Below are positions 34,894-55,583 of a stretch of DNA of 56,830 nt, one piece after another. The position numbers and the translations under genes are program-made. The notes beneath the pieces are model-generated. The model made no database searches, was not told where the DNA came from, and was given only the letters and a program-made list of their open reading frames with translations. Location: the NCBI RefSeq assembly GCF_030209445.1, contig NZ_JARVSD010000023.1, positions 1 through 56,830 of the forward strand, given 5' to 3'. The stretch comes from Promicromonospora sp. MEB111. GTDB taxonomy: Bacteria > Actinomycetota > Actinomycetes > Actinomycetales > Cellulomonadaceae. Every line of letters begins with the position of its first letter. The stretch's first letter is position 1.

Positions 34894-34931
34894 AACTTTT
34901 GCTTGACGCCCGACAGAAGTCCTCGTAGGTT
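34894..34931 (+). promoter_or_regulatory. promoter with putative ROK operator upstream of the DUF1080 gene
   Basis: TTGACG (34903-34908), a 17-bp spacer and TAGGTT (34926-34931) form a good sigma-70-type promoter. The -35 box is enclosed by a dyad, AACTTTTG (34894-34901) N12 CAGAAGTC (34914-34921), with 6 of 8 positions symmetric. The same sequence with perfect arms lies in front of the ABC importer at 39294, next to a ROK repressor gene. Confidence 0.7.
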
Positions 34932-34966
34932 CTAGCCGCAAGGTCAACGCCGACCGAGGAGAACTC

Positions 34967-37900
34967 ATGCGTCAACGTGGAACCAGAACCCGCACGAGAC
35001 AGGCAGCCGCGGCCGCGACTGCCGTGGCACTGACAGCGGTAACGCTCGCGGGGACGGTCCCCGCCGCGACGGCGGCGGTCGACGACCTCCCGCCCCAGGA
35101 GCCGGGCGTCACCCTGAGGACCTACGACCTGGCCCGCGACCTCAGCGAGCTGTGCACGCTCCGCTCGGGCCAGACGCCGAACGTCGACCAGCTCAAGCCC
35201 ACCATCGACTACTCGACCGAGGCCGACTTCGGGATGGGCGAGCGCTTCATCGCGCACGCGCTGGCCAACCTGAACGTGCCGGCGGAGGGCAACTACGAGT
35301 TCCGCCTCACGAGCGACGACGGGTCGCGCCTGGTGATCGACGACGCCGTCGTCGTCGACCACGACGGCCTGCACGGGGAGTCCTCGAAGGAGAGCACCGT
35401 CGCGCTCGGCGCCGGGTACCACGACCTGCGCGTGGAGTACTTCGACAACACGAACGACAACATCCTCAGGCTGGAGTGGCGCACGCCGGGCACCAGCGAC
35501 TTCGTCGTCGTGCCGTCCAGCGTGCTGAGCACCGAGGCCGGCGTCGTGCGCGTGACGGCCCCCGGCACCAAGTACTGCGAGGGCCAGGACGACTCGGCGG
35601 GCGACGGCATGCGCCTCGACTCCGTGTACCCGGGCTACACGCTGACCGACCTGCGCCCCGAGGGCTTCGAGCCCATGGTCTCGGGGCTCGACTGGACCGA
35701 CGACGACCGCCTCGCGGTGGTCACCTCCGGCTCCGTGAGCCCCGGCGGCTGGGTCGAGGACCCGGAGCCGGGCGAGGTCTTCCTGCTCGACAACGTGACC
35801 GGCGCGACCTCGAGGGACCAGGTCACGTACGAGAAGGTCGCCACCGACCTGTTCAACCCGATGGGCGTGGCCGTGATCGGGGAGTCGATCTACGTCTCGG
35901 AGCGGGACAAGCTCACCGAGCTCACCGACCCGGACGGCGACGGCTTCTACGACGACCACCGCACCGTGGCCGAGTGGCCGTTCGGCGGCAACTTCCACGA
36001 GTTCGCCTTCGGCCTGCTGTACGACGACGAGAGCTTCTACGTGAACCTCTCGGTGGCCATCAACAACGGCGGCGCCACCACGGACCCGCAGCCCGCCGAG
36101 AACCGCGGCACCGCCATCAAGGTGGACCGCGAGACCGGTGAGGTCGAGTACGTGGCGGGCGGCCTGCGCACGCCGAACGGCATGGTCAAGGGTCCGGACG
36201 GCGAGCTGTTCGTGATGGACAACCAGGGCGCCTGGCTGCCCAGCTCCAAGCTGGTGCACGTCGAGCAGGGCAAGTTCTTCAACCACTTCACCAACCCGTC
36301 CGGGCCGTACGACGCCCAGCCCGTCTCCGCCCCGGCGCTGTGGGTACCGCAGAACGAGATCGGCAACTCGCCGAGCGCCCCGGTGCAGCTCAGCGAGGGC
36401 CCGTACGCGGGACAGCTCGTGTTCGGCGACGTCACCTACGGCGGGCTGCAGCGCGGCTTCCTGGAGAAGGTCGACGGCGAGTACCAGGGCGCCGTCTTCC
36501 GGCACTCGGCGGGTCTGGAGGCGGGCGTCAACCGCACCGTCGTCGGGCCCGACGGCGCCCTGTACGTGGGCGGCATCGGCGAGGGTGGCAACTGGAGCGA
36601 GCCGGGCAAGCTGCGCTACGGCCTGCAGAAGCTCACGCCGAACGGCGAGGACGCCTTCGACATGACCGAGATGCGGGTGACCAAGAAGGGCTTCGAGATC
36701 GAGTACACCCAGCCGCTGTCGGCGGAGACGGTGGCCAAGATCGCGGAGGACCCGAACGCGGCGTTCCGCATGGACCACTGGCGCTACGTTCCCACCCGCG
36801 CCTACGGCGGGCCGAAGGTCGACGAGCGGCCGCTGTTCGTGGCGGGTGCCAAGGTCTCCCGCGACCGCACCAAGGTCACGCTTACCGTGGACGGGCTCGA
36901 GCCCGGCCGCGTGGTGCACCTGCGCAGCCCGCGCCCGTTCGCGGACGCCGAGGGCCGCGAGCTGTGGAACACCGAGGCCTGGTACACGCTCAACTCGATC
37001 CCCGGCTACAAGACGCCCGCCGAGCGTGGCTACCACGAGGCCGAGGAGGCGACGCTGCGCGGCAGCGCGAACGTCGCGACCGAGCACAGCGGCTACTCCG
37101 GCTCCGGCTTCGCGGCCGGCTTCGGCCAGGTCGGCGCGTCCGCGACCTTCACCACCACCGTCAAGCGCGCGGGCACCCAGCCCGTGAGCCTGCGCTACTC
37201 GAACGGTCCCAACCCGTTCCAGGGCACCAAGGAGGTGTCGGTGCTGGTCAACGGCCAGGAGGTCGAGCCGTGGGCGCTGGAGTCCACGGGTGACTGGAAG
37301 ACGTGGGCCACGGCCACACGCGACCTGCCGCTGAAGAAGGGCGTCAACACGATCACCCTGCGCTACGACGAGGACGACGACGGCAACGTCAACCTCGACG
37401 CCCTCAAGGTCGGGGCCGGCGCGGCGGACATCTGCACCCCGGAGCGCTACGAGCGGGGCTACCAGGCCCTGTTCGACGGCACCCTGGACTCCCTGGACGG
37501 GTGGCGCCTGGCCGGTGCCGGCTCGTTCGGCCGCCAGGCCGACTGCTCGATCCGCAGCACCGGGGGCATGGGTCTGCTCTGGTACACGGGCCAGGAGCTG
37601 GAGGAGTACAGCCTCAAGCTGGACTGGAAGCTCGTGAAGGACGACAACGGTGGCATCTTCGTCGGCTTCCCGAACCCGGGCAACGACCCGTGGGTCGCCG
37701 TCAACCAGGGCTACGAGATCCAGGTCGACGCGAGCGACGAGCCCGACCGCACCACCGGGGCGATCTACACCTTCCAGGGTGCGGACCCGGCGGCCGTCGA
37801 GCGGGCGCTCAAGCCCGTGGGCTCGTGGAACTCCTACGAGATCCGGGTCGTCGGGCAGACCATCAAGGTGCTGCTCAACGGCGTGCTGGTGAACGACTTC

Positions 37901-38011
37901 GTCAGCACCGACCCCGCACGTGACCTCGCCCAGGGGTACGTGGGCCTCCAGAACCACGGGGGCGGGGAGACGATCTACTACCGGGACGTCCGGGTGAAGA
38001 CCCTGGGCTGA
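34967..38011 (+). CDS. secreted multidomain protein: PA14-like, beta-propeller, CBM, 3-keto-disaccharide hydrolase (DUF1080)
   Basis: The 1014-residue protein has a signal peptide (RQAAAAATAVALTAVTLAGT, cleavage near AATAA). Residues ~40-190 form a PA14-like sugar-binding module (NYEFRLTSDDGSRLVIDDAV, YHDLRVEYFDNTNDNILRLE). Residues ~205-580 are a beta-propeller like PQQ/membrane-bound dehydrogenases (NPMGVAVIGESIYVSERDKL, GGLRTPNGMVKGPDGELFVM). Residues ~685-830 are a CBM6/35-like module (YHEAEEATLRGSANVATEHS, NVNLDALKVG). Residues ~835-1014 are DUF1080 (YQALFDGTLDSLDGWRLAG, VKDDNGGIFVGFPNPGND, GYVGLQNHGGGETIYYRDVR). DUF1080 is named for hydrolysis of 3-keto-disaccharides. GAGGAG precedes the ATG. 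It is controlled by the predicted ROK site. Confidence 0.88.
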   Translation: MRQRGTRTRTRQAAAAATAVALTAVTLAGTVPAATAAVDDLPPQEPGVTLRTYDLARDLSELCTLRSGQTPNVDQLKPTIDYSTEADFGMGERFIAHALANLNVPAEGNYEFRLTSDDGSRLVIDDAVVVDHDGLHGESSKESTVALGAGYHDLRVEYFDNTNDNILRLEWRTPGTSDFVVVPSSVLSTEAGVVRVTAPGTKYCEGQDDSAGDGMRLDSVYPGYTLTDLRPEGFEPMVSGLDWTDDDRLAVVTSGSVSPGGWVEDPEPGEVFLLDNVTGATSRDQVTYEKVATDLFNPMGVAVIGESIYVSERDKLTELTDPDGDGFYDDHRTVAEWPFGGNFHEFAFGLLYDDESFYVNLSVAINNGGATTDPQPAENRGTAIKVDRETGEVEYVAGGLRTPNGMVKGPDGELFVMDNQGAWLPSSKLVHVEQGKFFNHFTNPSGPYDAQPVSAPALWVPQNEIGNSPSAPVQLSEGPYAGQLVFGDVTYGGLQRGFLEKVDGEYQGAVFRHSAGLEAGVNRTVVGPDGALYVGGIGEGGNWSEPGKLRYGLQKLTPNGEDAFDMTEMRVTKKGFEIEYTQPLSAETVAKIAEDPNAAFRMDHWRYVPTRAYGGPKVDERPLFVAGAKVSRDRTKVTLTVDGLEPGRVVHLRSPRPFADAEGRELWNTEAWYTLNSIPGYKTPAERGYHEAEEATLRGSANVATEHSGYSGSGFAAGFGQVGASATFTTTVKRAGTQPVSLRYSNGPNPFQGTKEVSVLVNGQEVEPWALESTGDWKTWATATRDLPLKKGVNTITLRYDEDDDGNVNLDALKVGAGAADICTPERYERGYQALFDGTLDSLDGWRLAGAGSFGRQADCSIRSTGGMGLLWYTGQELEEYSLKLDWKLVKDDNGGIFVGFPNPGNDPWVAVNQGYEIQVDASDEPDRTTGAIYTFQGADPAAVERALKPVGSWNSYEIRVVGQTIKVLLNGVLVNDFVSTDPARDLAQGYVGLQNHGGGETIYYRDVRVKTLG

Positions 38012-38020
38012 CCGGCCCGA

Positions 38021-38068
38021 ACGTGTCAGACGCTCAGGTCCCCCGGGGGACCTGAGCGTCTGACACGT
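38021..38068. terminator. perfect 48-bp palindrome between convergent genes
   Basis: The arms 38021-38044 and 38045-38068 are perfectly complementary with no loop (centre GGTCCCCC/GGGGGACC). It follows the DUF1080 gene by 10 bp and faces the ROK gene stop at 38081, so it probably ends both transcripts. Confidence 0.85.
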
Positions 38069-38080
38069 GGGGGAGCGGGG

Positions 38081-39262
38081 TCACGCCACGAGGCGGTCCA
38101 CGGCGTCGGAGGACAGCGCCTGGTCCACCGCCATGGCGCTCGCACCGAGCACGCCCGCCTGCGTGCCGGTGCGGGCCGTGACGATCCGCAGGTGCTGGGT
38201 CGCCAGGGGCAGGGACCGCTGGTAGACCACCTCGCGGATGCCCGCCACGATGTGCTCGCCGGCGTCTGCCAGGATGCCGCCGATCACGATCATCGACGGG
38301 TTGAGCAGGCTCACGCTGGTGGCGAGCACGGCGCCGATGTCCCGGCCGGCCTGGCGCACGGCCTGGCTCGCGGCCACGTCGCCCGCCCGGACCAGGGCGA
38401 CGACGTCGGCGGGCGTGGTCGCGCCCTCCAGGCGGCTCGCCACGGCCTGTCCGCTGGCGATGGCCTCCAGGCAGCCGATGTTGCCGCAGCGGCACGCGAT
38501 GTCGGTGACGCCGGGCACGGCGACGTGCCCGATGTCGCCCGCCGAGCCCTGGGCACCGCGCCGCAGCGCGCCGTCCGCGATGATGCCGGCGCCGATACCG
38601 GTGGCGACCTTGACGAACAGCAGGTCGGCCACGTCGGGCCAGGCCGCGCGGTGCTCGCCCAGCGCCATGATGTTCACGTCGTTGTCCACGAGCACCGGCG
38701 CGTGGAACCGGGCGCCGAGGATCGCCGGCACGTCCGCGTTGTCCCAGCCCGGCATGATCGGCGGGTTGTTCGGCTTGCCGGTCGCGTGCTCCACGGGGCC
38801 GGGCAGGCCCACGCCGACGCCGGCGAGCTCGCCGGTGGTCCGGCCCGCCTCGCGCAGCAGCTCGGCGCCGGTCTCGGCCACGCGGTCGAGCACGAGGTCC
38901 GGACCGTCCGTGATGAGCAGCGGCAGGTCGCGCTGCGCCAGCACCGTCGAGGCGAGGTCGGTCAGGGCGAGCCGCGCGTGCGTCGCGCCGAGGTCCACCC
39001 CCAGGACGACCCGGGCGGACGGGGCGAACGCGAAGGTCGCGGGCGGGCGTCCGCCGGTCGACGTCGCCTCGCCCGCGGGCGCGATGAGGCCCGCCGTCAT
39101 CAGCAGGTCGATCCGCGCCGCGACGGTCGACCGTGCCTGCCCCGTGACGGCCGCGAGATCCGCCCGGGTCCGGGGTCGGCCGTCGCGCAGGAGCTGGAAC
39201 ATGTCGCCCGCTCCGGACACCTTGGGTACCTGCTGGAATACTTCCCGTGCCACTTCCACCAT
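38081..39262 (-). CDS. ROK family transcriptional repressor
   Basis: The ~393-residue protein has an N-terminal winged helix-turn-helix (MFQLLRDGRPRTRADLAAVT, ARSTVAARIDLLMTAGLI). A sugar-binding ROK domain follows, with the phosphate-binding motif VLGVDLGATHARLALTDL, the catalytic-type VLVDNDVNIMALGEH, and the zinc-binding ROK signature region IACRCGNIGCLEAIASG preceded by GDIGHVAVPG. Proteins of this build (NagC/Mlc/XylR type) are sugar-responsive repressors. It is divergent from the ABC importer, and a perfect dyad lies between them, so autoregulation and importer control are likely. ATG 39262 is chosen; TTG 39274 adds four residues. Confidence 0.93.
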   Translation of the reverse strand: MVEVAREVFQQVPKVSGAGDMFQLLRDGRPRTRADLAAVTGQARSTVAARIDLLMTAGLIAPAGEATSTGGRPPATFAFAPSARVVLGVDLGATHARLALTDLASTVLAQRDLPLLITDGPDLVLDRVAETGAELLREAGRTTGELAGVGVGLPGPVEHATGKPNNPPIMPGWDNADVPAILGARFHAPVLVDNDVNIMALGEHRAAWPDVADLLFVKVATGIGAGIIADGALRRGAQGSAGDIGHVAVPGVTDIACRCGNIGCLEAIASGQAVASRLEGATTPADVVALVRAGDVAASQAVRQAGRDIGAVLATSVSLLNPSMIVIGGILADAGEHIVAGIREVVYQRSLPLATQHLRIVTARTGTQAGVLGASAMAVDQALSSDAVDRLVA

Positions 39263-39293
39263 GTCCCTAGTCAATCATGGTGGGCGAAGTCGC

Positions 39294-39331
39294 GACTTTT
39301 GCTTGACCGTCGCCAAAAGTCCAACTACGTT
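39294..39331 (+). promoter_or_regulatory. importer promoter with perfect ROK-type operator
   Basis: TTGACC (39303-39308), a 17-bp spacer and TACGTT (39326-39331) form the promoter. The dyad GACTTTTG (39294-39301) N12 CAAAAGTC (39314-39321) encloses the -35 box. The -10 box ends 6 nt before ATG 39338, giving a leaderless mRNA. The site also lies upstream of the divergent ROK gene. It matches the promoter at 34894 base for base over ACTTTTGCTTGAC. Confidence 0.75.
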
Positions 39332-39337
39332 CGATAC

Positions 39338-40876
39338 ATGGTCGACGCGGACCCCCAACCGACAGAGCAGCCGGCGCAGCAGCCCCTGCTGCGGATGCGC
39401 GGCATCGTGAAGGAATTCCCTGGCGCGCGTGCGCTCGACGGCGTGGACCTCGAGGTCCGTCCCGGCGAGGTGCACTGCCTGCTGGGCCAGAACGGGGCGG
39501 GAAAGTCCACCCTGATCAAGACCCTGGCCGGTGCCCACCAGCCCACGGCGGGCGAGATCCTGATCGACGAGGAACCGGTGGTCATCGCGAACCCCGTCGC
39601 CGCCCTGCGGCTCGGCATCGCGACGATCTACCAGGAGCTCGACGTCGTCGACGGCCTGACCGTCGCCGAGAACATCTACCTGGGGCACGAGCTCGCGACC
39701 GGCGGCGTCACCCGCCGGTCCGAGGCGGCCCGGAACACCCGCAAGATCCTCGACCGGCTCGGGCACAAGGAGATCTCCCCGCACCGTGAGGTGGGCTCGC
39801 TGCCCGCCGCGGGCAAGCAGATCGTGCAGCTCGCCCGGGCGCTGTCGCGCGACGCGCGCGTGGTCATCATGGACGAGCCGTCCGCCGTGCTGGACTCCGA
39901 GGAGGTCGGCAACCTCCACCGCATCGTGCGTGAGCTCACCGCCGACGGCGTCGCCGTCGTCTACATCTCGCACCGCCTGGAGGAGATCCGGCAGCTCGGC
40001 GACCGGATCACCGTGCTCAAGGACGGCCGCACCGTCGCGGAGAGCCTCACCGTGGCGGACACTCCGACCAAGGAGCTGATCCAGCTCATGACCGGCCGGT
40101 CGGTCGAGTACGCGTTCCCCGACCGCCCCGGCGTGGCCGAGGACGCGGCACCGGTCCTCCAGGTCGAGGGCCTCGGGCTCGGCGACGTCTTCGCCGACGT
40201 CTCCCTCACGGTCCGCGCCGGCGAGATCGTCGGCCTGGCGGGCCTGGTCGGCTCGGGCCGCTCCGAGATCCTGGAGACGATCTACGGTGCCCGGAAGGCG
40301 ACCTCGGGCACGGTACGCGTGGGCGGCAAGCGCCTGCGCTCCGGCGTGGACGCCGCCGTGAGCGCGGGCATCGGCCTGTGCCCCGAGGAGCGCAAGAGCC
40401 AGGGCCTGATCCTGGACGAGCCCGTCTACCGCAACATCACCTTGTCCACCTTCTCGCGCATGGCGCGCGCCGGGCTGCTCGACGAGCGCGCCGAGCGTGC
40501 CGCGGCCCGCGAGCAGGTCGAGGCCCTCGACCTGCGGCCCGCCGGCGTGGAGCGGAGCGCCCGCACCCTGTCCGGCGGCAACCAGCAGAAGGCGCTGCTG
40601 GCGCGCTGGCTCGTGCACGGCTGCCGCGTCCTGCTGCTCGACGAACCCACTCGGGGCGTCGACGTCGGCGCCCGCGCCGAGATCTACAACCTGATCCGCC
40701 GCCTGGCGGACGACGGCGCCGCCGTGGTCGTCGTGTCCAGCGAGATCCCGGAGGTGCTCGGACTCGCGGACCGCGTGCTGGTCATCTCCGACGGCAAGGC
40801 GGTCCACGAGGGTCCCGCCCGCGAAATCGACGAGCACGCCGTGCTCGACCTGGTCATGGAAGGAAGTGTGGCGTGA
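39338..40876 (+). CDS. sugar ABC transporter ATPase (RbsA/MglA type)
   Basis: The 512-residue protein fuses two ABC domains, as in carbohydrate uptake transporter 2 ATPases. The first has Walker A GQNGAGKSTLI (residues 50-60), Walker B VVIMDEPSAVLDS, a Q-loop ATIYQELDVV and a weakened signature (LPAAGKQIVQLARAL). The second has the degenerate Walker A GLVGSGRSE, the full signature LSGGNQQKALLARWL and LLLDEPTRGVDVGA. It powers import through the permease and lipoprotein encoded next. The start is the ATG exactly at the predicted transcription start. The stop overlaps the permease GTG. Confidence 0.95.
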   Translation: MVDADPQPTEQPAQQPLLRMRGIVKEFPGARALDGVDLEVRPGEVHCLLGQNGAGKSTLIKTLAGAHQPTAGEILIDEEPVVIANPVAALRLGIATIYQELDVVDGLTVAENIYLGHELATGGVTRRSEAARNTRKILDRLGHKEISPHREVGSLPAAGKQIVQLARALSRDARVVIMDEPSAVLDSEEVGNLHRIVRELTADGVAVVYISHRLEEIRQLGDRITVLKDGRTVAESLTVADTPTKELIQLMTGRSVEYAFPDRPGVAEDAAPVLQVEGLGLGDVFADVSLTVRAGEIVGLAGLVGSGRSEILETIYGARKATSGTVRVGGKRLRSGVDAAVSAGIGLCPEERKSQGLILDEPVYRNITLSTFSRMARAGLLDERAERAAAREQVEALDLRPAGVERSARTLSGGNQQKALLARWLVHGCRVLLLDEPTRGVDVGARAEIYNLIRRLADDGAAVVVVSSEIPEVLGLADRVLVISDGKAVHEGPAREIDEHAVLDLVMEGSVA

Positions 40877-41850
40877 GCCAACGATCGGCCCTCATGGGCC
40901 CGGCCCTGCGTATGGGTGGCCTCGTGCTCGCCCTTGTCCTGCTGGTCGTCGTGGGTGTGGCGACCGGCGGTGAGCGGTTCTGGAGCTTCGGCAACTTCAC
41001 CACCATCCTCAGCCTCGCGGCCGTGATCGGCGTCGTGAGCATCGGCATGACGTTCGTCATCACGTCCGGCGGCATCGACCTCTCGGTCGGCTCCGTGCTC
41101 GGCCTCGCGTCCATCTGGGCGTCGACCCTGGCGACCCAGTACGCGGCCGAGGACTACGGCTGGTGGGTCATCGTGGTCACGGCGATGGCCGTCGGCCTGG
41201 GTGCGGGCCTCGTCAACGGCGCGCTCATCGCGTACGGCAAGGTCCCGGCGTTCATCGCGACGCTGGCCATGCTGGCCGCGGCCCGCGGCCTCGCCGAGAT
41301 CATCGCCGGACGGCGTACCCAGGTCGTCCAGGTGGACGCGTTCTTCGACGTCTTCCAGGCCAAGCCGCTGGGCCTCCCGGTGATCGTCTGGATCTTCGTC
41401 GTGGTCGCCGCCGCCGGCTGGTTCCTGCTGAACCGCACCACGTTCGGCCGCCGCACCGTCGCGGTCGGCGGCAACCCCGAGGCGTCGCGCCTGGCGGGCA
41501 TCAAGATCAAGCGGCACACCCTGTACCTGTACGCGCTCTCCGGCCTGGCGGCGGGCATCGGCGGCGTGATGATCCTGGCCCGGACCACCGCCGGTTCCTC
41601 CACGAACGGACTGTTCTACGAGCTGGACGCCATCGCGGCGGTCGTGGTCGGCGGCACGCTGCTGGTGGGCGGCCGCGGCACCATCACGGGCACAGTGCTG
41701 GGCGTCCTCATCTTCGCGACGCTCACCAACGTCTTCGTCATCAACAACATCGACAGCTCGGTCCAGGCGATCGCCAAGGGCGCGATCATCGTGTTCGCCG
41801 TGCTGCTGCAGCAGTGGTTCGCCTCGCGCGAGCGCGTCTCGGCCACCTAG
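40873..41850 (+). CDS. sugar ABC transporter permease (RbsC type)
   Basis: The 325-residue membrane protein has about eight to ten hydrophobic helices (for example MGGLVLALVLLVVVGVATGG, VIGVVSIGMTFVITSGGIDL, VIVWIFVVVAAAGWFLLN). The RbsC family segments GGIDLSVGSVLGLASI and NPEASRLAGIKIKRHTLYLY (the cytoplasmic loop that meets the ATPase) are present, as is AVVVGGTLLVGGRGTITGTV. GTG 40873 overlaps the ATPase stop by 4 bases. It should form the translocation channel for a monosaccharide or small sugar derivative. Confidence 0.95.
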   Translation: MSQRSALMGPALRMGGLVLALVLLVVVGVATGGERFWSFGNFTTILSLAAVIGVVSIGMTFVITSGGIDLSVGSVLGLASIWASTLATQYAAEDYGWWVIVVTAMAVGLGAGLVNGALIAYGKVPAFIATLAMLAAARGLAEIIAGRRTQVVQVDAFFDVFQAKPLGLPVIVWIFVVVAAAGWFLLNRTTFGRRTVAVGGNPEASRLAGIKIKRHTLYLYALSGLAAGIGGVMILARTTAGSSTNGLFYELDAIAAVVVGGTLLVGGRGTITGTVLGVLIFATLTNVFVINNIDSSVQAIAKGAIIVFAVLLQQWFASRERVSAT

Positions 41851-47300: not shown

Positions 47301-49957
47301 CGTTGCGCGCCGCCTCGCAGGGCGGCGGCGGAGAGGTGTCGCTGCGCTGGGACGCGCCGGACGGTCCGGAGATCGGCCGCATCACGGTGCCCGGCACGGG
47401 CGGCTGGCAGCAGTACGTCGACGTCGGGACCGAGCTGCACGACGTGCCCTCGGGTTCGGGCTCGCTGCACTTCGTCCTGCTGTCGGGAGGCATCAACGCC
47501 AACTGGATGGAGATCGACGGCCGCGGTGTCACCGACAACCAGCGGCCGGAGGTCGAGCTGACGGTCGACCCGGTCGCGGGTGACGCCCCGCTCACCGTGA
47601 CCGCGTCCGCCGCCGCCACGGACCCCGACGGGACCGGAGACCTGACCTACGCCTGGGACGCCGGTCTCGGCGACGGGTTCGTCGACGGGACGCCGGCGTT
47701 CGAGCACACCTACGAGACGCCGGGGACCTACCGGCTCCAGGTGCGTGTCACCGACGAGGGCGGCGCCTACGCCGTCGAGTACGTCATGGTGGAGGTCACC
47801 GGGATCGTCACGGAGCCCGCGCTGTGCCTGTCGGGGCGGTCGGACGACTTCCTCGGTGACGAGCTCGACCCGGACCGCTGGACCGTGCTGGACCGCAACC
47901 AGGACCTGCGGGTCGCCGACGGGGTGCTCACCATCCCGGCGAGCGTCACGGACTTCTACGGGACGGGGAACTCCACCGTGCCGAACCTCGTGCTGCAGGA
48001 CCTGCCGGACGGCCCCTTCACCGCCACGGCCAAGGTCACGATCCCTGCCTACGCGCAGTACCAGCAGGCCGGACTGCTGATCTACGGCGACGCGGACAAC
48101 TACGCCAAGATGGTGATCGAGGGGCGTTCGGCACCTGCCGACCCGGCCACGCGCATCTTCCAGTACATCCGTGAGGAGGCCGGCGTGCCGAACGAGGTCG
48201 GTGACTCCAACACCGCCGCCCTCGGCCAGGCGTACCCGGACACGGTGTACGTGCGTCTGTCCAGCAGCGACGGCGAGGACCTGACGGCGGCGTACTCGGA
48301 CGACGGGGTGGACTTCACGGCCATGCCGCAGACCAAGTCGCTGTCGGGCATCGACGACCCGCAGATCGGGCTCTTCGCGCTCGCCGGCAGCGGTTCGGCG
48401 GCCGAGGTCGTGGACGCGCGGTTCGACTGGTTCCACATCACCCCGGACGACACAGCCACGGCCCCCGGCCCGGACGACGAGTTCGACGGGGACGGGCTCG
48501 ACGCCTGTCGCTGGGACGTCGTCCGCGACGACCCGACGGGATACCGGGTGACCGGGGGCGCGCTGGAGATCGACACGACCGCCACGGACATCTACACCGG
48601 CTCCAACACCGGCACGCCGAACATCGTCGTGCAGGACCTGCCGGAGGATGACTGGACGGTCGAGACGCTGGTGGACGGCTCGGACTTCGACCAGCAGTAC
48701 CAGCAGGGCGGGCTCATCGCCTACGGCGACGACGACAACTACGTCAAGCTCGACCTCGTGACCGACAACGCGGTGGGCAGCCCCGTCGCGCAGCGCCTCG
48801 AGCTGCGCAGCGAGGTCGACGCGGTGGTGCAGGAACCGCAGCCGAACGTGAACGGCCTCACCTCGGGCACGTGGCACCTGCGGCTCTCGAAGGAAGGTTC
48901 GACCTTCACCGCGGCCTACAGCGCCGACGGTGAGGAATGGACCGCGTTCGACGAGTCCGTGACCCATGACGGGCTGCAGGACGCCCGGGTGGGCCTGTAC
49001 GCGCTGGGTGCCTCCCAGCAGTCGGTCGCCACGGCGTCGTTCGACCACTTCCGGGTGGTCGGTGCCGCCGAGCCGCTCGCGGTGAGCGGCACCGTGTCAC
49101 CGGCCGAGCCGGACGGCCCGGACGGGCAGTGGCTCGGGCCGGTCACGGTCACCGTGGAGGCCACGGGCGGTCCGGACGGCGCCACGGTGTACCGGGAGGT
49201 CAACGTCGACGACGGCGGCTGGACCGAGTACACGGCACCGGTGGAGATCTCGGCGTCCGGCGCCCACACCGTCCAGGTGCGGGCGTCGGCGGACGGCGAC
49301 ACGGTCGTCGGCGAGACCCTTCGGTTCACGATCGCGGAGCCCGAGGTCAGCGAGGCGACGCCGGCGGTCGAGATCGTCCAGCCGACGTGCTCCTACGACC
49401 GGTCGGGAGACGAGGTCGTCACCGGCGGTGCACTGGTCACCGCCGAGGTGGAGGGCGTGCGGTCCTACGTCGTGCGGGAGTGGGTCGACGGCGCGGCCGG
49501 TGACGTCGTGACCGACCTGGACGACCTCGCTCCCGGTAGGTACCGGGTCGCGGCCCGGCCTGCCGACGGGTACGTCCTCGTCGCCGAGGGAGACTGGAAG
49601 GTACGCGACAACGGGCTCGCCGTGCTCTTCGTGACGCTCGAGGAGCCCGAGTGCCCCGACCCGAACACGCCGGACGTCGTCGTCACGGCGGCGACCTGCG
49701 ATGCCGGGGGCTCGATCGATCCGGTCGAGCTGCCGGGCGTGCGCAGCTACGTCGTGCACCGCTGGGTCGACGGCAAGGCCGACGGCAAGCCGCGTGACCT
49801 GGGGAACCTCGCGGCCGGTGACTACCGCGTCATCGCCACGCCGGAACCCCGCACGAAGCTGACGGTGGCGGGGGACTGGCAGCTCAGCCCCTCCGGCAAG
49901 GCGTTCGTCGTCGTGACCGTCGAGGACGGGTGCGCGACGAACCAGGGGGCCGTGTGA
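44336..49957 (+). CDS. giant secreted ThuA / PQQ-type sugar dehydrogenase / PKD / CBM / concanavalin-like protein
   Basis: The 1873-residue protein has a signal peptide (SVVAAAAVTALGVPAMVAAA). Residues ~57-275 are a ThuA domain (DALVFSRTAGFRHGSIPAGI, GGGYAGIHAASDTEYDW, SWYTGGGHTDASY). Residues ~285-730 are a glucose/sorbosone dehydrogenase propeller (CCHAGGDMVFDGDGNLYVAT, MGFRNPFRIGVDPATDN). Then come PKD (~735-820), a CBM6-like module (~920-1060), a second PKD (~1068-1155), and two homologous concanavalin-like modules (~1165-1372 and ~1380-1578, each with YQQ[AG]GL[IL][AI]YGD[AD]DNY). An Ig-like domain and two ~90-residue Cys repeats with GVRSYVV..WVDG close the chain. No LPXTG or membrane anchor is seen. 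GAGGAG precedes GTG 44336. Confidence 0.9.
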   Translation: MRNVLRTGRVLRSVVAAAAVTALGVPAMVAAAAPSVASQRVPAEAAVASAAKAAAEPFDALVFSRTAGFRHGSIPAGIEAITQLGAANDFTVTATEDASVFSDEGLADYEVVVFLSTTGDVLDEQQQAAFERYIQGGGGYAGIHAASDTEYDWPWYGELVGAYFNSHPANQDATVKVEDDVHASTAHLPQRWERHDEWYNYRTNPRDQVHVLASLDETTYDAGTGAMGAEHPIAWCQVYDGGRSWYTGGGHTDASYGEPEFLEHLLGGLQTAAGVVDSDCAATQSDSYEMVPLDEDTANPMMLDVADDGTVFYVERDGRVQLIDPDSNTTSTAMTLPVTQSNEDGLTGVVLDPDFAANGWVYLFWSPQDVGDDGPHNRVSRFDYDAASGTIDQASEETVLIIPTQRQTCCHAGGDMVFDGDGNLYVATGDNTNPFESQGYAPLDERAGRANFDSQRTSANSNDLRGKVLRITPQDDGSYTIPEGNMFAPGTADTLPEIYAMGFRNPFRIGVDPATDNVLVADYGPDAGAANPDRGPAGTVEWNVVSEPGFYGWPYCTGANNAYRSYDFATGQSGAAYDCAGGAVNDSPNNTGITQLPPAAEAEVWYGYGTNPLFPEIGGGGAPMGGPVYTYDPELESDTKWPAYWDGKALFGEWNQGRMYSFQLAGEQRDDLVDINRALPGIFDPSAGFDRPMDFDFGPDGALYVVDWGSGFGGNNDTSGVYRVDYVEGDPAPIARAAADVTDGLAPLTVQFSSEGTRHPAGEPLSLQWTFGDGSAPSTEANPTHTYTENGRYTAQLVATDPAGQTGVANVTIVVGNIAPEVSITFPENGGFFEWGDQVRYEIEVDDPDGEVSCDDVTLFTSLGHDSHAHPFEELTGCSGVIQTARDEGHGIESNIFWVIEGFYTDDGGAAGAPLTATDLQVLQPKLVQSEFFTGTGRVGGIGDGAGDPGVQIEQTGDSAGGGQNIGFIEPGDYWAHEPVSLAQVDSISLRAASQGGGGEVSLRWDAPDGPEIGRITVPGTGGWQQYVDVGTELHDVPSGSGSLHFVLLSGGINANWMEIDGRGVTDNQRPEVELTVDPVAGDAPLTVTASAAATDPDGTGDLTYAWDAGLGDGFVDGTPAFEHTYETPGTYRLQVRVTDEGGAYAVEYVMVEVTGIVTEPALCLSGRSDDFLGDELDPDRWTVLDRNQDLRVADGVLTIPASVTDFYGTGNSTVPNLVLQDLPDGPFTATAKVTIPAYAQYQQAGLLIYGDADNYAKMVIEGRSAPADPATRIFQYIREEAGVPNEVGDSNTAALGQAYPDTVYVRLSSSDGEDLTAAYSDDGVDFTAMPQTKSLSGIDDPQIGLFALAGSGSAAEVVDARFDWFHITPDDTATAPGPDDEFDGDGLDACRWDVVRDDPTGYRVTGGALEIDTTATDIYTGSNTGTPNIVVQDLPEDDWTVETLVDGSDFDQQYQQGGLIAYGDDDNYVKLDLVTDNAVGSPVAQRLELRSEVDAVVQEPQPNVNGLTSGTWHLRLSKEGSTFTAAYSADGEEWTAFDESVTHDGLQDARVGLYALGASQQSVATASFDHFRVVGAAEPLAVSGTVSPAEPDGPDGQWLGPVTVTVEATGGPDGATVYREVNVDDGGWTEYTAPVEISASGAHTVQVRASADGDTVVGETLRFTIAEPEVSEATPAVEIVQPTCSYDRSGDEVVTGGALVTAEVEGVRSYVVREWVDGAAGDVVTDLDDLAPGRYRVAARPADGYVLVAEGDWKVRDNGLAVLFVTLEEPECPDPNTPDVVVTAATCDAGGSIDPVELPGVRSYVVHRWVDGKADGKPRDLGNLAAGDYRVIATPEPRTKLTVAGDWQLSPSGKAFVVVTVEDGCATNQGAV

Positions 49958-50036: not shown

Positions 50037-50075
50037 CCTCCCGGGCCGGCGGCCCCTGAATCGAGAGGGACGGAC

Positions 50076-50678
50076 ATGCAGAGGTTCACGCGCCTCGGTG
50101 CGGCGCTGGCACTGGGGCTCGGACTCGCCGTCGGGCCGCTCGCCGCGGCGCCGGCGTCGGCGCACGGCGGGAAGATCGACATCGAGCTCGGCACGGACGG
50201 CGCCGGCGGCATCTCCGCCGCACTGGTCTGGGCAGGCGACCAGCACCCCGTCGAGGAATCGGCCGTGGTGGAGGTCCGGGCGGTCTCCGACGCCGGTGAC
50301 GAGGTGGGCCCGATCACGCTTGTCTCGGCGTCCGAGGGCGTCGGCTGGTACCGCTCGGAACCCGCGGTGCTCGACGAGGGGCACTGGACGGTGACCGCGC
50401 GGGTCAAGGAGCCGGCCAAGGCGAAGGTCGAGACCGAGGTCGACGTGGTGGCACCGCCCGCCGCCGAGCAGGCAGAGCCCGAGCAGGCAGAGGCCGGGGC
50501 GAGCAGCTCGCAGCCGGCCGAGACCACCACCGGGGCGGACGGGGCAGGCACGGCAGCACGGACGGACGACGTCGCATCGGCGTCGAGCGGTCTGCCGGGC
50601 TGGACCGGCTGGGTGCTGGGCGCGCTCGTCGTCGCGGGAGCGGCGACGGCCGTTCTCCGGCGCAGGCGTACTCCCTGA
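50076..50678 (+). CDS. small secreted protein with C-terminal membrane anchor
   Basis: The 200-residue protein has a clear signal peptide ([20 protein letters not shown]) whose likely cleavage after APASA would leave His as the first mature residue ([10 protein letters not shown]). A ~100-residue Ig-like/CopC-sized beta domain follows ([37 protein letters not shown]). After an acidic, Ser/Thr-rich linker there is one membrane helix ([19 protein letters not shown]) and a RRRR tail, so it is anchored with the domain outside. I do not recognise the family. The position inside the sugar locus suggests an accessory role, possibly metal binding because of the N-terminal His, but this is speculative. 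Confidence 0.75.
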
Positions 50679-50734: not shown

Positions 50735-51736
50735 ATGGCACGACCGATCACCCTCTTCACCGGCCAGTGGGCCGATCTGCCGCTCGAGGAGGTGGCACGC
50801 CTCGCGTCGGAGTGGGGCTACGACGGGCTGGAGCTCGCCTGCTGGGGCGACCACCTGGACCCGTGGCGCTGGGACGACGACGAGTACGTCGCCGGACGCC
50901 TCGAGCTGCTGGAGCGGTACGGCCTCAAGGTGTGGGCGATCTCCAACCACCTCAAGGGCCAGGCCGTCTGCGACGACCCGATCGACCAGCGCCACCGCGA
51001 CATCGTCTCCGACCGGGTGTGGGGCGACGGTGACCCCGAGGGCGTGCGGCAGCGCGCAGCGGAGGAGATGAAGAACACCGCGCGGCTGGCCGCGAAGCTC
51101 GGCGTCAAGACCGTGATCGGGTTCACCGGTTCCGCGATCTGGAAGTACGTGGCGATGTTCCCGCCGGTCTCCGACGCGGCGATCGAGGCCGGCTACCAGG
51201 ACTTCGCCGACCGCTGGAACCCCATCCTCGACGTGTTCGACGAGGTGGGGGTCAAGTTCGCCCACGAGGTGCACCCCAGCGAGATCGCCTACGACTACTG
51301 GACCACCGTCCGCACGCTCGAGGCGATCGGCCACCGCGAGGCGTTCGGCCTCAACTGGGACCCCAGCCACATGGTGTGGCAGGACCTGGACCCGGTCAGC
51401 TTCCTCTGGGACTTCAAGGACCGGATCTACCACGTGGACTGCAAGGACACGAAGAAGCGCATGACGAACGGCCGGAACGGCCGCCTGTCGTCGCACCTGC
51501 CGTGGGCCGACCCGCGTCGCGGCTGGGACTTCGTGTCGACCGGGCACGGCGACGTCCCCTGGGAGGACGCGTTCCGGATGCTCAACACGATCGGCTACGA
51601 CGGCCCGATCTCCGTGGAGTGGGAGGACGCCGGCATGGACCGCCTCGTGGGCGCGCCGGAAGCCCTCCAGTTCGTGCGTTCCCACGCGTACGACGCGCCG
51701 GACTCCGCGTTCGACGCCGCGTTCTCGACCCGCTGA
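50735..51736 (+). CDS. cytoplasmic sugar phosphate isomerase/epimerase-like TIM barrel
   Basis: The 333-residue protein of the xylose-isomerase-like/AP-endonuclease-2 superfamily starts with [20 protein letters not shown] and [19 protein letters not shown]. Likely metal ligands are Glu178 ([10 protein letters not shown]), Asp209 ([13 protein letters not shown]), His233 ([10 protein letters not shown]) and Glu295 (PISVEWED). No signal peptide is present. Relatives next to Gfo/Idh/MocA enzymes act on keto-sugar intermediates, for example in inositol, C-glycoside or 3-keto-glycoside breakdown; which reaction applies here is unknown. AGGAGG stands just before ATG 50735. Confidence 0.92.
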
Positions 51737-51894
51737 CCCGCACCCGCTGACCAGGAGGTACGTCACCGAGCCACCCGCACCACACCGGTGTCGCCGTACG
51801 GCACCGGACCCGCAGGAAGACCGGGCCCCGGACGAATGGGATGCGCACGAGGCCCGGCCGGCGTGACCAACTCGACGAGGAGCTGCATCACGAG

Positions 51895-54561
51895 ATGAAG
51901 ACTATCGAGACGCGCGTTCACGCGCGCCAGAAGAGAACGCTGGCGGCGCTCGCGGCCGCCGCGCTGGTCGGGACGGCACTCGTGGCCGCGCCGACGGCGT
52001 TCGCGCACGACGGCCACGACGCCGCCGGCCCCGCGGACGCGGCGGCCGCCGCGGACACCGACTGGGGCAACTACGAGAAGATTCTGCTCACCAAGGACGT
52101 GGGCGAACCGATCGACATGGCGGTCCTGCCCGACCAGCGGGTGCTCCACACCGCCCGCAACGGCGACGTCCGGCTGACCGACCCGGCCACGGGCGTCACC
52201 CGCGTCGTCAACACCCTGGACGTGTACGCCAACTCGGAGGACGGCCTGCAGGGCATCGCCCTGGCGCCCGACTTCGCGGAGAGCAACCAGGTCTACCTCG
52301 TGTACGCGCCGCGGGACGCGGACGGCGACGGCGTGACGGACACACCGGCGGGCAACGCGCCCAACACGCTGCCCGCGGGCGAGGACGAGAGCTACTGGGA
52401 CCAGTGGGTGGGCGTGAACCGCCTGGCCCGCTACACCTGGACCGGCGACGGGCTCGACCTCGACTCGGAGCAGGCGATCCTCGACATCGAGGTGCAGCGC
52501 GGCCAGTGCTGCCACGTCGGCGCCGACATCGACTTCGACGGCGAGGGGAACCTCTACCTCTCGACCGGCGACAACACCCCGGCCGGCACGCCGGGCGCCA
52601 ACGGCTACGCCCCGAACAACGACGCCCCGAACATGAACCCGGGCTTCGACTCGCGGCGCGGGGCGGGAAACACCAACGACCTGCGGGGCAAGATCCTGCG
52701 GATCGACGTGAAGGACGAGATCCCCGCCGGCACGGCGCCGGGCGAGGGCAGCACCTACGACGTCCCCGCGGGCAACCTGTTCGCCCCCGGCACGGAGGGT
52801 ACGCGCCCCGAGATCTTCGTGATGGGCGTGCGCAACCCGTTCCGCATCGAGGTGGACCCCCAGACCAACTCCCTGACCTGGGGCGACTACGGGCCCGACG
52901 CCGGCGCCGCGAACGCGGACCGCGGGCCGATGGGCTACGTGGAGTGGAACGCCGTGGGCCTCGACGACCCGCACAACTCCGGCTGGCCGTACTGCCACGG
53001 CCCGAACGCGGCCTACAACGAGTGGAACTTCGAGACCGCCACGCCGCGCGAGTTCTTCGACTGCGCGGCGCCGGTCAACAACTCCCGCTGGAACACGGGC
53101 CTGACCAACCTGCCCCCGTCGCGGGCGGCCACCCTGTACTACGGCGACCAGGCGGGCCAGCAGCCCCGGGACGAGCTCGTGAGCTTCGGCTCGGGCAGCG
53201 GCCAGGCGCCGATGGGCGGCCCGGTCTACCACTACGACGCCGACAGCACGGCCCCGGGGAAGTTCCCCGAGTACTGGGACGGCAAGGCGTTCTTCGGCGA
53301 GTTCTCCCAGGACTACTACGCCGCGTTCAGCGTGGACTGGTCCACGTTCGAGGTCGGCGAGATCGAGGACTTCTTCCCCAACTCGGCGCTCACCGCCGCC
53401 GGCATGCCGATCAACGACAACCCGATCGACCTCGAGTTCGGCCCGGACGGCTCGCTGTACGTCCTGGAGTACGGCGACGGGTTCTTCCGGCAGAACCCGG
53501 ACTCCGGGCTCTACCGCATCGATCACGCCGAGGGCAACAAGGCGCCGCAGGCGCAGTTCACGGCCACGCCGGAGTCGTCCCCGTCCGCGCCGGTGGAGGT
53601 CGCGTTCGACGCGTCGGGCTCCAGCGACCCGGACGGCGACACGCTCACCTACGAGTGGGACGTCGACGGTGACGGCACCTTCGACCTGACCGGCCCGGAG
53701 GTCACGCACACCTATACCGAGCTCGGCGTCTACACGGCCCGCCTGCGCGTCACCGACGGCAGCGGCAAGCGCACGCTCACCTCGACGTCGATCAGCGTCG
53801 GCAACGAGGCGCCCGAGATCACCGTCGACTTCCCGGCCGACGGCGGTTTCTTCGACTGGGGCGACGAGGTCGCCTTCCAGGTGACCACGAACGACGCCGA
53901 GGACGGCACCGAGACCGTCTGCGAGCGGGTCGCCTGGTCGTACGGCCTCGGCCACGACGAGCACGCGCACCCCGAGGTGTCGGGCACCGGCTGCACCGGC
54001 GTCTTCCCGACCGACCCCAACTCCCCGGAGCACGGCGCCGGCGCGCACCTGTACGGCGCCGTCGTCATCACCTACACCGACAACGGGGCCAACGGCCTGC
54101 CGCCCGCCGCCGGCGAGGCGACGCTGCGCCTGAACCCCAAGCTGCAGCAGGCGGAGCACGCGACCCTGAAGGGCGTCGAGGTGGTCCAGGACGAGACGGC
54201 CTCGGCCGGCGCGTACGTGACCGGCCTCGGCAAGAAGGACTCGCTCGCCCTGGAGCGGGTGAGCCTGTCCGGGATCGACAGCGTGACCGCGACGGTGCGC
54301 GGCAAGGGGCAGCTCCAGCTCCGCTGGGGCTCGCCCACGGCCAGGCCGTTCGCGAGCGCGAAGGTGAACGCGCGCACGTGGAAGGACGTCGACCTGTCGT
54401 TCCGCGACCGCGACCAGACGGGGACGCTCTACGTCACGGCGACGGGCACCCTCGACGTGGACGCCCTGACGATGGTCGGCGAGGGCGTCGGTACGCCCCC
54501 CGCTGCCGAACAGAACTCGACCGGCCCGTCCGGGGCCGCTCGGACCGAAGGAGAGCAGTGA
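51895..54561 (+). CDS. secreted PQQ-type glucose/sorbosone dehydrogenase with PKD and CBM-like modules
   Basis: The ~888-residue protein has a signal peptide (TLAALAAAALVGTALVAAPT) cleaved probably after AFA, leaving HDGHD at the mature N-terminus. Residues ~56-549 form the GSDH propeller (EDGLQGIALAPDFAESNQVY, QCCHVGADIDFDGEGNLYLS, VMGVRNPFRIEVDPQTN, DLEFGPDGSLYVLEYGDGFF). A PKD domain follows (SSDPDGDTLTYEWDVDGDG), then the same EITVDFPADGGFFDWGDEV segment as in the giant ThuA protein, and a degenerate CBM6/35-like end. Whether it oxidises sugars with PQQ or binds another ligand is unproven. ATG 51895 is chosen because it directly starts the signal peptide; ATG 51841 adds 18 residues. Confidence 0.88.
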   Translation: MKTIETRVHARQKRTLAALAAAALVGTALVAAPTAFAHDGHDAAGPADAAAAADTDWGNYEKILLTKDVGEPIDMAVLPDQRVLHTARNGDVRLTDPATGVTRVVNTLDVYANSEDGLQGIALAPDFAESNQVYLVYAPRDADGDGVTDTPAGNAPNTLPAGEDESYWDQWVGVNRLARYTWTGDGLDLDSEQAILDIEVQRGQCCHVGADIDFDGEGNLYLSTGDNTPAGTPGANGYAPNNDAPNMNPGFDSRRGAGNTNDLRGKILRIDVKDEIPAGTAPGEGSTYDVPAGNLFAPGTEGTRPEIFVMGVRNPFRIEVDPQTNSLTWGDYGPDAGAANADRGPMGYVEWNAVGLDDPHNSGWPYCHGPNAAYNEWNFETATPREFFDCAAPVNNSRWNTGLTNLPPSRAATLYYGDQAGQQPRDELVSFGSGSGQAPMGGPVYHYDADSTAPGKFPEYWDGKAFFGEFSQDYYAAFSVDWSTFEVGEIEDFFPNSALTAAGMPINDNPIDLEFGPDGSLYVLEYGDGFFRQNPDSGLYRIDHAEGNKAPQAQFTATPESSPSAPVEVAFDASGSSDPDGDTLTYEWDVDGDGTFDLTGPEVTHTYTELGVYTARLRVTDGSGKRTLTSTSISVGNEAPEITVDFPADGGFFDWGDEVAFQVTTNDAEDGTETVCERVAWSYGLGHDEHAHPEVSGTGCTGVFPTDPNSPEHGAGAHLYGAVVITYTDNGANGLPPAAGEATLRLNPKLQQAEHATLKGVEVVQDETASAGAYVTGLGKKDSLALERVSLSGIDSVTATVRGKGQLQLRWGSPTARPFASAKVNARTWKDVDLSFRDRDQTGTLYVTATGTLDVDALTMVGEGVGTPPAAEQNSTGPSGAARTEGEQ

Positions 54562-55583
54562 TGGAATCACGCACTGACGTCAACCGCAGGAACTTTCTGA
54601 GGCTGGCCGGCGGCACCGTGGCCGTGGGTGCGGCGACGCTGGCCGGTGCCGGTCTCGCGGGCAGCGCCGCCGCGGCGACGCTCGCCCCGGCGACGGCGGC
54701 GACCGGGGCAGCGGCCGCCGGCCGGGGCGGGGGCCGCGTGCTCGTGCCCGCCGGCCACATCGGCATCCAGCTGTACTCGATCAGGGACAAGGTCTCCTCG
54801 CTCGGCTTCCGCACCGTCTTCGAGCGGCTGGCCGACATGGGCTACGCCGAGGTCGAGTTCGCCGGGTACACGCAGGGCCAGGTCGGGGCGATCACGCCCC
54901 AGGAGATCCGGCAGCTGCTCGACGACAACGGCCTGAGGGCCGTGGGCTCCCACCGCGGGATCTCGGACTTCGCCAACAACATGGAGCAGGAGCTCGACAT
55001 CGCCGAGACCCTCGGCATGGAGCACGTGGGCACCGCGCAGGCGCCCACCAGCAACCGCACGGTGGCCGGCTACCTCGCCGCCGCCGAGCAGTTCAACGGC
55101 TTCGGCGCGGCGGCGCGCGCCCGCGGCCTGAAGTTCTACCAGCACAACCACGACGGGGAGTTCGGCTTCGCCACCGACAACCCCGACGTGCGGCTCTACG
55201 ACGTCTTCTACGACAACACCGACCCCCGGAAGGTCTTCCTCGAGATGGACGTCTACTGGGCGTTCGTGGGGCAGCACCGCTACCCGGGCTTCGAGCCGGT
55301 GGACTACGTCAAGCGCAACCCGCACCGCTACCCGCTCCTGCACCTCAAGGACGGCGACGCGAACCCGGCGAACACCGGTGGCTACGACATCGTGGAGTTC
55401 GGGGCCGGCGACCTGCCGTACACCGAGTTCCTGTCGGCGCTCGCGGGCTCGGGCCGGCGGCACGGCATCTGGGAGCAGGACAACGCCGCCTCGGTGGCCG
55501 CACCCGGCTACCCGGTCGACTCGTTCGGCAACGCCGAGCGGTCGTACGTCGAGATCCGCTCGCTGCGGGCCGAGCGCTGCTGA
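54561..55583 (+). CDS. Tat-exported sugar phosphate isomerase/epimerase-like protein
   Basis: The 340-residue protein begins with a twin-arginine signal NRRNFLRLAGGTVAVGAATL (RR at residues 9-10) and an Ala-rich linker, and then a TIM-barrel isomerase/epimerase domain (HIGIQLYSIRDKVSSLGFRT, GYAEVEFAGYTQGQVGAITP). Likely metal-site segments are KFYQHNHDGEF, VFLEMDVYWAFVGQ, LLHLKDGDANP and HGIWEQDNA. Tat export suggests that it folds and loads its metal in the cytoplasm and then works outside, with the secreted ThuA/GSDH proteins. ATG 54561 overlaps the upstream stop by one base, so the two genes are coupled; GGAGAG precedes it. Confidence 0.92.
   Translation: MESRTDVNRRNFLRLAGGTVAVGAATLAGAGLAGSAAAATLAPATAATGAAAAGRGGGRVLVPAGHIGIQLYSIRDKVSSLGFRTVFERLADMGYAEVEFAGYTQGQVGAITPQEIRQLLDDNGLRAVGSHRGISDFANNMEQELDIAETLGMEHVGTAQAPTSNRTVAGYLAAAEQFNGFGAAARARGLKFYQHNHDGEFGFATDNPDVRLYDVFYDNTDPRKVFLEMDVYWAFVGQHRYPGFEPVDYVKRNPHRYPLLHLKDGDANPANTGGYDIVEFGAGDLPYTEFLSALAGSGRRHGIWEQDNAASVAAPGYPVDSFGNAERSYVEIRSLRAERC

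Follow-up and report, generated by a model that had tools for sequence, protein, structure and literature searches.

After analyzing gene content, conservation and regulatory sites at positions 34,894-55,583 of contig NZ_JARVSD010000023.1 from Promicromonospora sp. MEB111, we propose with moderate confidence that this locus is central to a regulon under ROK repression. The regulon would serve to catabolize a glycoside or an oligosaccharide through oxidation, elimination, hydration and reduction, with the steps split across the cell envelope. The window, that is, the whole stretch of DNA analyzed, was the entire contig (C17; 56,830 nucleotides) of a 6.23-Mb genome in 35 contigs. Window genes were called from reading frame and third-position G+C content (GC3), and families were assigned with Pfam and NCBIfam. 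The parts that an earlier note on this DNA had named were recovered by these models where that note had placed them. The P0007 gene, together with the palindromes found elsewhere in the genome before the gene heading an ebo row and before a copper-oxidase gene, goes beyond it. The features are as follows (ABC, ATP-binding cassette; CBM, carbohydrate-binding module; Tat, twin-arginine translocation).

34895..34920, + strand: candidate ROK operator ACTTTTG-N12-CAGAAGT, before the DUF1080 gene, overlapping a TTGAC box (pattern scan)
34967..38011, + strand: P0001, exported PA14 - propeller-like - CBM35/CBM6 - PF06439 (DUF1080) protein (Pfam; signal peptide by eye)
38081..39274, - strand: P0002, ROK-family repressor, likely start near 39262 (Pfam/NCBIfam)
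39295..39320, + strand: perfect palindrome ACTTTTG-N12-CAAAAGT in the ROK-rbsA gap, overlapping a TTGAC box (pattern scan)
39338..40876, + strand: RbsA/AraG-type ABC importer ATPase (Pfam/NCBIfam)
40876..41850, + strand: RbsC-type permease, BPD_transp_2 (Pfam)
41902..42954, + strand: P0004, RbsB-type sugar-binding protein (Peripla_BP_4), lipoprotein-like (Pfam; lipoprotein signal by eye)
43030..44208, + strand: P0005, Gfo/Idh/MocA dehydrogenase; solved relatives 4h3v, then 6a3f (Pfam/NCBIfam and structure matches)
44336..49957, + strand: P0006, exported ThuA - GSDH propeller - PKD - CBM6 - PKD - DUF1349 x2 protein (Pfam; GTG start at 44336 from sequence)
50076..50678, + strand: P0007, small secreted beta-sandwich protein with a C-terminal membrane anchor (sequence, homologues)
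50735..51736, + strand: P0008 (iso1), cytoplasmic AP_endonuc_2 barrel (Pfam; relatives 2zds, 8ro4)
51841..54561, + strand: P0009 (GSDH2), exported GSDH propeller - PKD protein, likely start 51892 (Pfam)
54561..55583, + strand: P0010 (iso2), Tat-exported AP_endonuc_2 barrel (Pfam; twin-arginine signal by eye)

Gene content, conservation, the palindrome, the homologies and the tie of GSDH to Ebo are observations, from which we infer a scheme that is the simplest to employ almost all of the parts; its reactions, substrate, step order and electron path, and the binding of the palindromes by the ROK protein, are all inferences. Outside the cell, the GSDH-type propellers, one of them held at the substrate by its CBM, would oxidize a sugar hydroxyl, putatively that at C3. 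The keto-glycoside would then be cleaved by iso2 and the DUF1080 domain, through elimination or apparent hydrolysis, and the ThuA domain would join at some step. The released keto-sugar or keto-glycal would enter via the RbsABC-type importer. Inside, iso1 would hydrate the 2-hydroxy-3-keto-glycal to a 3-keto-sugar, which Gfo would reduce to an ordinary aldose of the glucose or xylose type, while the electrons released outside would probably pass to the copper proteins of the regulon and then to oxygen. The neighboring genes point to glucosides or xylosides as the substrate.

The exported and imported parts are fronted by the same palindrome and, because it is shared, we suggest that they form one system. 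With up to 3 mismatches allowed, the window contained two palindromes, the perfect one at 39295-39320 and the one with 1 mismatch at 34895-34920, against 0.06 expected; one of 100 shuffles also gave two sites. The palindrome of the ROK-rbsA gap was kept across the genus. A census of 13 genus genomes, our own included, returned 49 sites of the strict form ACTTNTG-N12-CANAAGT, with at least one in every genome, and none for the reversed pattern used as the control. Five targets accounted for 47 of the 49 sites, namely rbsA/ROK (13), the DUF1080 gene (11), an INO1-like gene (12), a multicopper oxidase gene (7) and an exported F5/8-domain barrel (4). The other two lay near an alpha/beta hydrolase gene in our own genome and, in G011, before a frame weakly similar to rbsA. 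Genome sites with 3 mismatches were set aside, since a tolerance of as many as 3 yielded 14 sites for the reversed control and 12 for the pattern itself. Control by the ROK protein and joint regulation of the outside and inside parts, as the earlier note had envisaged, are thus favored by the position and conservation of the palindrome.

The copper-oxidase target in our own genome (L210, C5:113000-128000) heads a row that encodes a Tat-exported multicopper oxidase, whose signal was read by eye, a ThuA-F5/8C-GSDH-PKD-DUF1080 protein and an OmpL47-repeat protein containing a plastocyanin-like domain. A homologue of the ThuA-GSDH-DUF1080 protein was found behind the oxidase gene in four stretches from relatives that extend far enough.

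The clustering of the genes is real and not due to chance. Of 119 genomes searched with ThuA-GSDH, 45 had a match, our own counted, and stretches from 30 relatives were compared: 12 of the same genus, 17 of other genera and G089, in which GSDH2-like and iso2-like genes stand alone. Within the genus, ThuA, iso1, GSDH2 and iso2 were present in 12 of 12 relatives. ROK, rbsABC and gfo were present in 11 of 12, the twelfth contig beginning at ThuA, and the ROK and rbsA genes of that genome were located on another contig (L225). The GSDH1 domain was found in 11 of 12 and DUF1080 in 10 of 12 at the locus, plus one on another contig (L229). The conserved clustering proposed earlier also extended beyond the genus: all 17 relatives from other genera, which had been selected through their ThuA-GSDH match, contained ROK, rbsA, rbsC, rbsB, gfo, ThuA, GSDH and iso1. 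At that place iso2 occurred in 3, DUF1080 in 2 and GSDH2 in 1 of them; these three genes are additions mainly of Promicromonospora. A P0007-type small gene accompanied the locus in 23 of the 29 relatives that have it, made up of 8 of the 12 Promicromonospora genomes and 15 of the 17 from other genera.

Several loci showed peculiarities of their own. A second gfo-rbsA-rbsC set, read in stretches L081-L082, L084-L085 and L090-L099, lay right behind iso1 in seven genomes (G042, G058, G022, G068, G053, G034 and G018), and the longest stretches, those of G022, G053 and G018, had one or two more ThuA-GSDH genes after this second importer set. In L068 (G009:C149, about 4587-5907), the ROK match came in two pieces about 140 bp apart and may be broken or misassembled. 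Actinobacterial-type clusters were also present in L177, from a record titled Planococcus sp., and in L188 (Bacillus sp., UNVERIFIED_ORG), which resembles the Blastococcus locus L186; these are possibly mislabelled assemblies.

For the cytoplasmic pair, iso1 and Gfo, the comparison could be extended to a class-level sample of 394 genomes. iso1 was present in 141 of them, which belong to 50 of the 138 genera, and most matches had at least 70% identity. Among the best 80 of at least 597 iso1 stretches from named genomes, where misses include contig ends, the neighbors were gfo (72), rbsB (59), rbsC (55), rbsA (52), ROK (49), ThuA (17), GSDH1 (15) and iso2 (12). At E <= 0.001, iso1 had two solved relatives, 2zds (568 bits), for which no function is named, and 8ro4 (122 bits, E 3.4e-34, residues 17-328). 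The latter is named 2-hydroxy-3-keto-glucal hydratase and is presumably AtHYD. For AtHYD, preliminary evidence of 2-hydroxy-3-keto-glucal hydration has been reported, after which a Gfo reductase yields glucose (PMC10628242). Gfo (P0005) had 4h3v as its closer structural match, and its nearest enzyme with a named function was levoglucosan dehydrogenase (6a3f, 298 bits), a point on which the earlier note, which named ThuB, was off. Membership in the levoglucosan dehydrogenase family itself (NF052479) was rejected at 366.6 bits against a curated cut-off of 650. Gfo also fell below the cut-offs of the BT_2158/BT_2159 models (BT_2158_fam, 46 bits versus 750).

We regard L154-type loci as the best functional anchor for the gfo-iso1 pair. 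At L127, L154 and L164, the pair stands together with a GMC (glucose-methanol-choline) oxidase and a deglycosidase-like barrel. The oxidase of Arthrobacter globiformis NBRC 12137 (L154) matches 7qf8, the glycoside 3-oxidase PsG3Ox (PMC10646112), across all 519 residues. The L154 barrel is 76% identical to that of L127, whose best solved match is a 7dnm/7dnn chain (185 bits), 7dnn being described as the structure of the C-glycoside deglycosidase AgCGD2 (PMC10628242). Because A. globiformis has separate enzymes for oxidation and cleavage, hydration and reduction would be left to gfo-iso1. Additionally, tblastn found XylA in 21 and XylB in 6 of the best 80 iso1 loci, and XylA lay between gfo and iso1 in several Kribbella and Nocardioides loci; three XylA representatives and one XylB representative scored over the NCBIfam cut-offs (TIGR02631, TIGR01312). 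XylA takes free aldoses and, since it stands beside the pair, gfo-iso1 probably delivers an ordinary aldose.

The same data bear on two alternatives. An intact small glycoside or anhydrosugar might be imported first, so that Gfo would oxidize C3 inside the cell and iso1 would both eliminate and hydrate, with the exported proteins serving a looser, separate purpose. The kinship of Gfo with levoglucosan dehydrogenase fits this order of events, as do the 63 of the 80 best iso1 loci without ThuA in the stretch read and the report that LgdB2 is probably bifunctional (PMC7676230). However, other enzymes carry out oxidation and cleavage in L154-type loci, and the exported genes are fronted by the same palindrome; we therefore consider import before oxidation unlikely. 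Still less probable, to our mind, is that the importer and ROK protein constitute a xylose or xyloside system, in which Gfo and iso1 would turn 3-keto-xylose products into xylose for XylA and XylB. The frequency and position of the XylA and XylB genes, as well as the CBM6/CBM35 and GH43_C2-like domains, would suit such a system, but XylA, which also acts on glucose, was not identified in the window, and the importer ATPase scored under the cut-off of each sugar model among the 25 matches listed. Moreover, the neighboring 3-oxidases are reported to act on glucose or on C-glycosides such as mangiferin (PMC10646112, PMC10807413).

On the exported side, where our preferred scheme places oxidation and cleavage, iso2 matched 8tcd/8tcr (107.6 bits, 6.9e-30) and, more weakly, 8bvk (34.1 bits, 1.4e-7). 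We take 8tcd to be a Bacteroides barrel and 8tda a DUF1080 protein, both from the BT2156-BT2160 pathway. The weaker match, 8bvk, is the beta-eliminase AtOGE, described as acting on 3-keto-O-glucosides (PMC10628242). The PF06439 domain of P0001 (DUF1080, now '3-keto-disaccharide hydrolase') scored 130.7 bits against a cut-off of 26.8, and its family includes BT2157, which has been called a 3-ketotrehalose hydrolase (PMC9007349). The keto-sugar chemistry that the earlier note proposed thus gains support from homology (8ro4, 6a3f and, more weakly, 8bvk) and from PF06439. PVC/DUF7133 models matched the propeller-like middle of P0001 below cut-off. P0006 scored 269.8 bits for ThuA (PF06283) and 121.3 bits for GSDH, and DUF1349/GH43_C2 was also there. 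All four large exported proteins had been thought to carry CBMs. At E <= 0.01, Pfam recognized them in two, P0001 and P0006, and found none in P0009; P0010, scanned at E <= 0.001, had none.

A model of the ThuA-GSDH core, made from 34 sequences, had a mean predicted local distance difference test (pLDDT) score of 82 and displayed the six-bladed propeller fold of pyrroloquinoline quinone (PQQ) sugar dehydrogenases. Its top PDB matches belonged to the soluble glucose dehydrogenase and aldose sugar dehydrogenase types, with 1cq1, 2ism and 3das among them. The PQQ ligands were checked in a MAFFT alignment of the canonical aldose sugar dehydrogenase (Asd) of the genome with 12 sequences, comprising both window GSDHs, two paralogues from the same genome and eight relatives. 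The ligands are numbered K377, R406 and R408, which we take to be the numbering of soluble glucose dehydrogenase. All aligned GSDHs had the catalytic His, and nearly all had the Arg-Asn pair. By sequence alignment alone, R-x-R (R406/R408) was present in 0 of 12, its first Arg in 2, and the Lys/Arg position (K377) was altered. Vicinal Cys-Cys preceded the His in both window GSDHs and in 4 of 8 relatives. PqqC was found in none of 29 genomes, our own included, and PqqE over cut-off in none either, in searches that had no positive control; weak PqqE-model matches below cut-off occurred in 28 of the 29, as we would expect from radical S-adenosylmethionine (radical-SAM) proteins. Hence 'PQQ-type dehydrogenases', the earlier wording, agrees with the fold, the His and the Arg-Asn pair but not with the remaining ligands or the Pqq searches, and the reading of the window GSDHs as strict PQQ dehydrogenases was set aside, although uptake of PQQ from outside is possible.

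For the small protein P0007, His-Gly-Gly, the putative start of the mature chain, was present in 26 of 26 aligned homologues; as the segments had been cut at this motif beforehand, the count speaks for the motif and not for the cleavage site. A fold search with P0007 gave no match at E <= 0.001. Several of its weak top matches were copper proteins (FetP, CrdA) and others were not, and its resemblance to copper proteins, by which it could be a copper carrier, is weak.

The palindrome also leads to the Ebo genes. In our own genome (C8), it precedes an INO1-like cyclase gene that is followed by a row of genes for an EboC-like UbiA protein, a barrel, EboA, a TatD-type protein and EboE; the row was read in this genome, and the INO1-like gene alone was read in the other genus genomes. 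EboE scored 437.4 bits against a cut-off of 250 and the EboA domain 130.2 against 50, while the EboA family model gave 50.9 against 320. The EboC-like protein exceeded the cut-off of the SCO3242 family prenyltransferase model (316 versus 260) and missed that of the EboC model (152.1 versus 250). EboD and EboF were not identified.

Across the 394 genomes, window-type GSDH (E <= 1e-40) and EboE over its curated cut-off (a looser count, at E <= 1e-30, is given in brackets) occurred together. EboE was found in 90 genomes (98) and window-type GSDH in 83; both were present in 78 (81), GSDH without EboE in 5 (2), EboE without GSDH in 12 (17) and neither in 299 (294). Three of the five GSDH-only genomes have an EboE match under cut-off. 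The Fisher p of this co-occurrence was about 1e-63, a value that ignores relatedness. Canonical Asd, searched at E <= 1e-25 with a shorter query, was present in 246 of the 394, 83 of them with EboE (odds ratio 10); in Asd-positive genomes lacking window-type GSDH, EboE occurred in 8 of 166, and in genera g45, g52, g95 and g100 Asd does not track Ebo. The 141 iso1-positive genomes divided into 75 with both, 5 with GSDH only, 0 with Ebo only and 61 with neither. Among these, mixed genera had both/neither counts of 25/2 (g80), 7/3 (g95), 4/6 (g100), 2/6 (g52) and 3/3 (g45). Three genera fitted in part: g123 (3 both, 2 GSDH only), g135 (1 both, 1 GSDH only) and g159 (2 GSDH only, 1 neither). Mere phylogeny as the cause of the link was thereby partly tested, Ebo and GSDH covarying within the five mixed genera. 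EboE and GSDH lay within 15 kb of each other in 43 of 74 genomes, EboE and iso1 in 48 of 73, and Ebo or INO1-like genes occurred in 14 of the best 80 iso1 loci.

That 12 of the 90 EboE genomes have no window-type GSDH speaks against a strict one-to-one need between the two. All 12 (G124, G156, G183, G196, G255, G283, G288, G364, G399, G401, G450 and G459) are iso1-negative at the thresholds applied, and two belong to g80; Ebo may have other partners there.

We tentatively speculate, while considering it rather doubtful, that Ebo makes a redox prosthetic group for the window-type GSDHs and delivers it across the membrane; this would be a compound derived from an isoprenoid and a cyclitol, taking the place of PQQ in extracellular sugar oxidation. 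An isoprenoid-cyclitol compound has been proposed as the product of the ebo genes (PMC5133447). In Nostoc, all ebo mutants are reported to be biochemically like the scyE mutant, making no scytonemin and accumulating the monomer, and microscopy and fractionation favored a transport role of Ebo (PMC6282210). A cofactor role might account for this likeness, ScyE being a periplasmic oxidase, although the published localization favors transport. No link of ebo to 3-keto sugars or sugar dehydrogenases was found among the papers listed by the open-access literature searches, the ebo papers included. That the GSDH/ThuA/Ebo set is not catabolic but builds or alters a secreted metabolite or a glycan of the cell surface, whose sugar the importer, Gfo and iso1 recycle, would accord with the tie of Ebo to scytonemin precursor export in Nostoc (PMC6282210) and with the isoprenoid-cyclitol proposal (PMC5133447), but is very improbable, as a sugar importer with ROK, the CBMs and the copies that adjoin genes for C-glycoside breakdown are what a catabolic system would have.

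Several points weigh against the envelope-split pathway that we prefer. The palindrome of the copper-oxidase operon in our own genome has 2 mismatches, and 6 of the 13 genus genomes have no strict site before the copper-oxidase gene. A sigma-70 scan gave no promoter at the palindromes, and it is from their position and conservation that ROK would be expected to bind them. Because 8ro4 and 8bvk are distant relatives of iso1 and iso2, iso1 could act instead as an eliminase, an epimerase or a dehydratase, and iso2 could have some other function. Gfo, at 366.6 of 650 bits, could act as an oxidase. The GSDH propellers, without most PQQ ligands, may not be oxidases at all. Finally, because ThuA occurs in 17 of the 80 iso1 loci, the inside part would often work without it.

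If the proposed pathway is true, a Gram-positive bacterium would carry out non-hydrolytic sugar breakdown split by its envelope, with oxidation outside and reduction inside. The proposal suggests functions for the 2zds barrel and for the ThuA-GSDH giants, which are function-less in the records examined. It also ties the ebo operon to defined exported propellers, so that ebo mutants could be tested for lost extracellular sugar oxidation, and if the cofactor reading is true, this widespread operon would gain a function. Elsewhere in the window, at 26094-29383, HATPase kinase-like, Roadblock/LC7 and ATP_bind_1 genes are grouped closely, a gene make-up that we take to be that of an actinobacterial conservon.

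Similar to the levoglucosan pathway LgdA-LgdB1-LgdB2-LgdC of Bacillus smithii and Paenarthrobacter, reported to proceed by C3 oxidation, elimination, hydration and reduction (PMC7676230, PMC10066097), the locus combines a Gfo/Idh/MocA protein, an AP_endonuc_2 barrel and a sugar ABC importer. In contrast to that pathway, it has one Gfo, one cytoplasmic barrel and additional large exported ThuA/GSDH/DUF1080 proteins. The Agrobacterium AtOGE/AtHYD pathway is echoed by the relation of iso1 to 8ro4 and of iso2 to AtOGE (8bvk), and the actinobacterial 3-oxidase/C-glycoside deglycosidase pathway by the gfo-iso1 pair that adjoins a cluster of that kind in A. globiformis. Both of these pathways use flavin adenine dinucleotide (FAD) oxidases or other dehydrogenases, whereas the candidates here are the outside GSDH propellers. 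The Bacteroides BT2156-BT2160 set, which is said to have appeared in Nature in 2024 as a broad-specificity pathway, shares the PF06439 domain, the barrel and the Gfo family with our locus, but the host here is Gram-positive and DUF1080 is fused to PA14, propeller and CBM domains. With soluble PQQ glucose and aldose sugar dehydrogenases, the window GSDHs share the propeller fold, the catalytic His and the Arg-Asn pair; they differ in that the K377/R406/R408 equivalents are mostly gone, Cys-Cys precedes the His (in the closest relatives), ThuA is fused to the propeller and Ebo is usually in the genome. With the ThuA/ThuB system of trehalose utilization, the locus shares the ThuA domain (PF06283) of P0006. 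Similar to known Ebo operons, the row in our own genome holds EboE, an EboA domain, an EboC-like UbiA protein and a TatD-type gene, but here an INO1-like cyclase gene heads the row.

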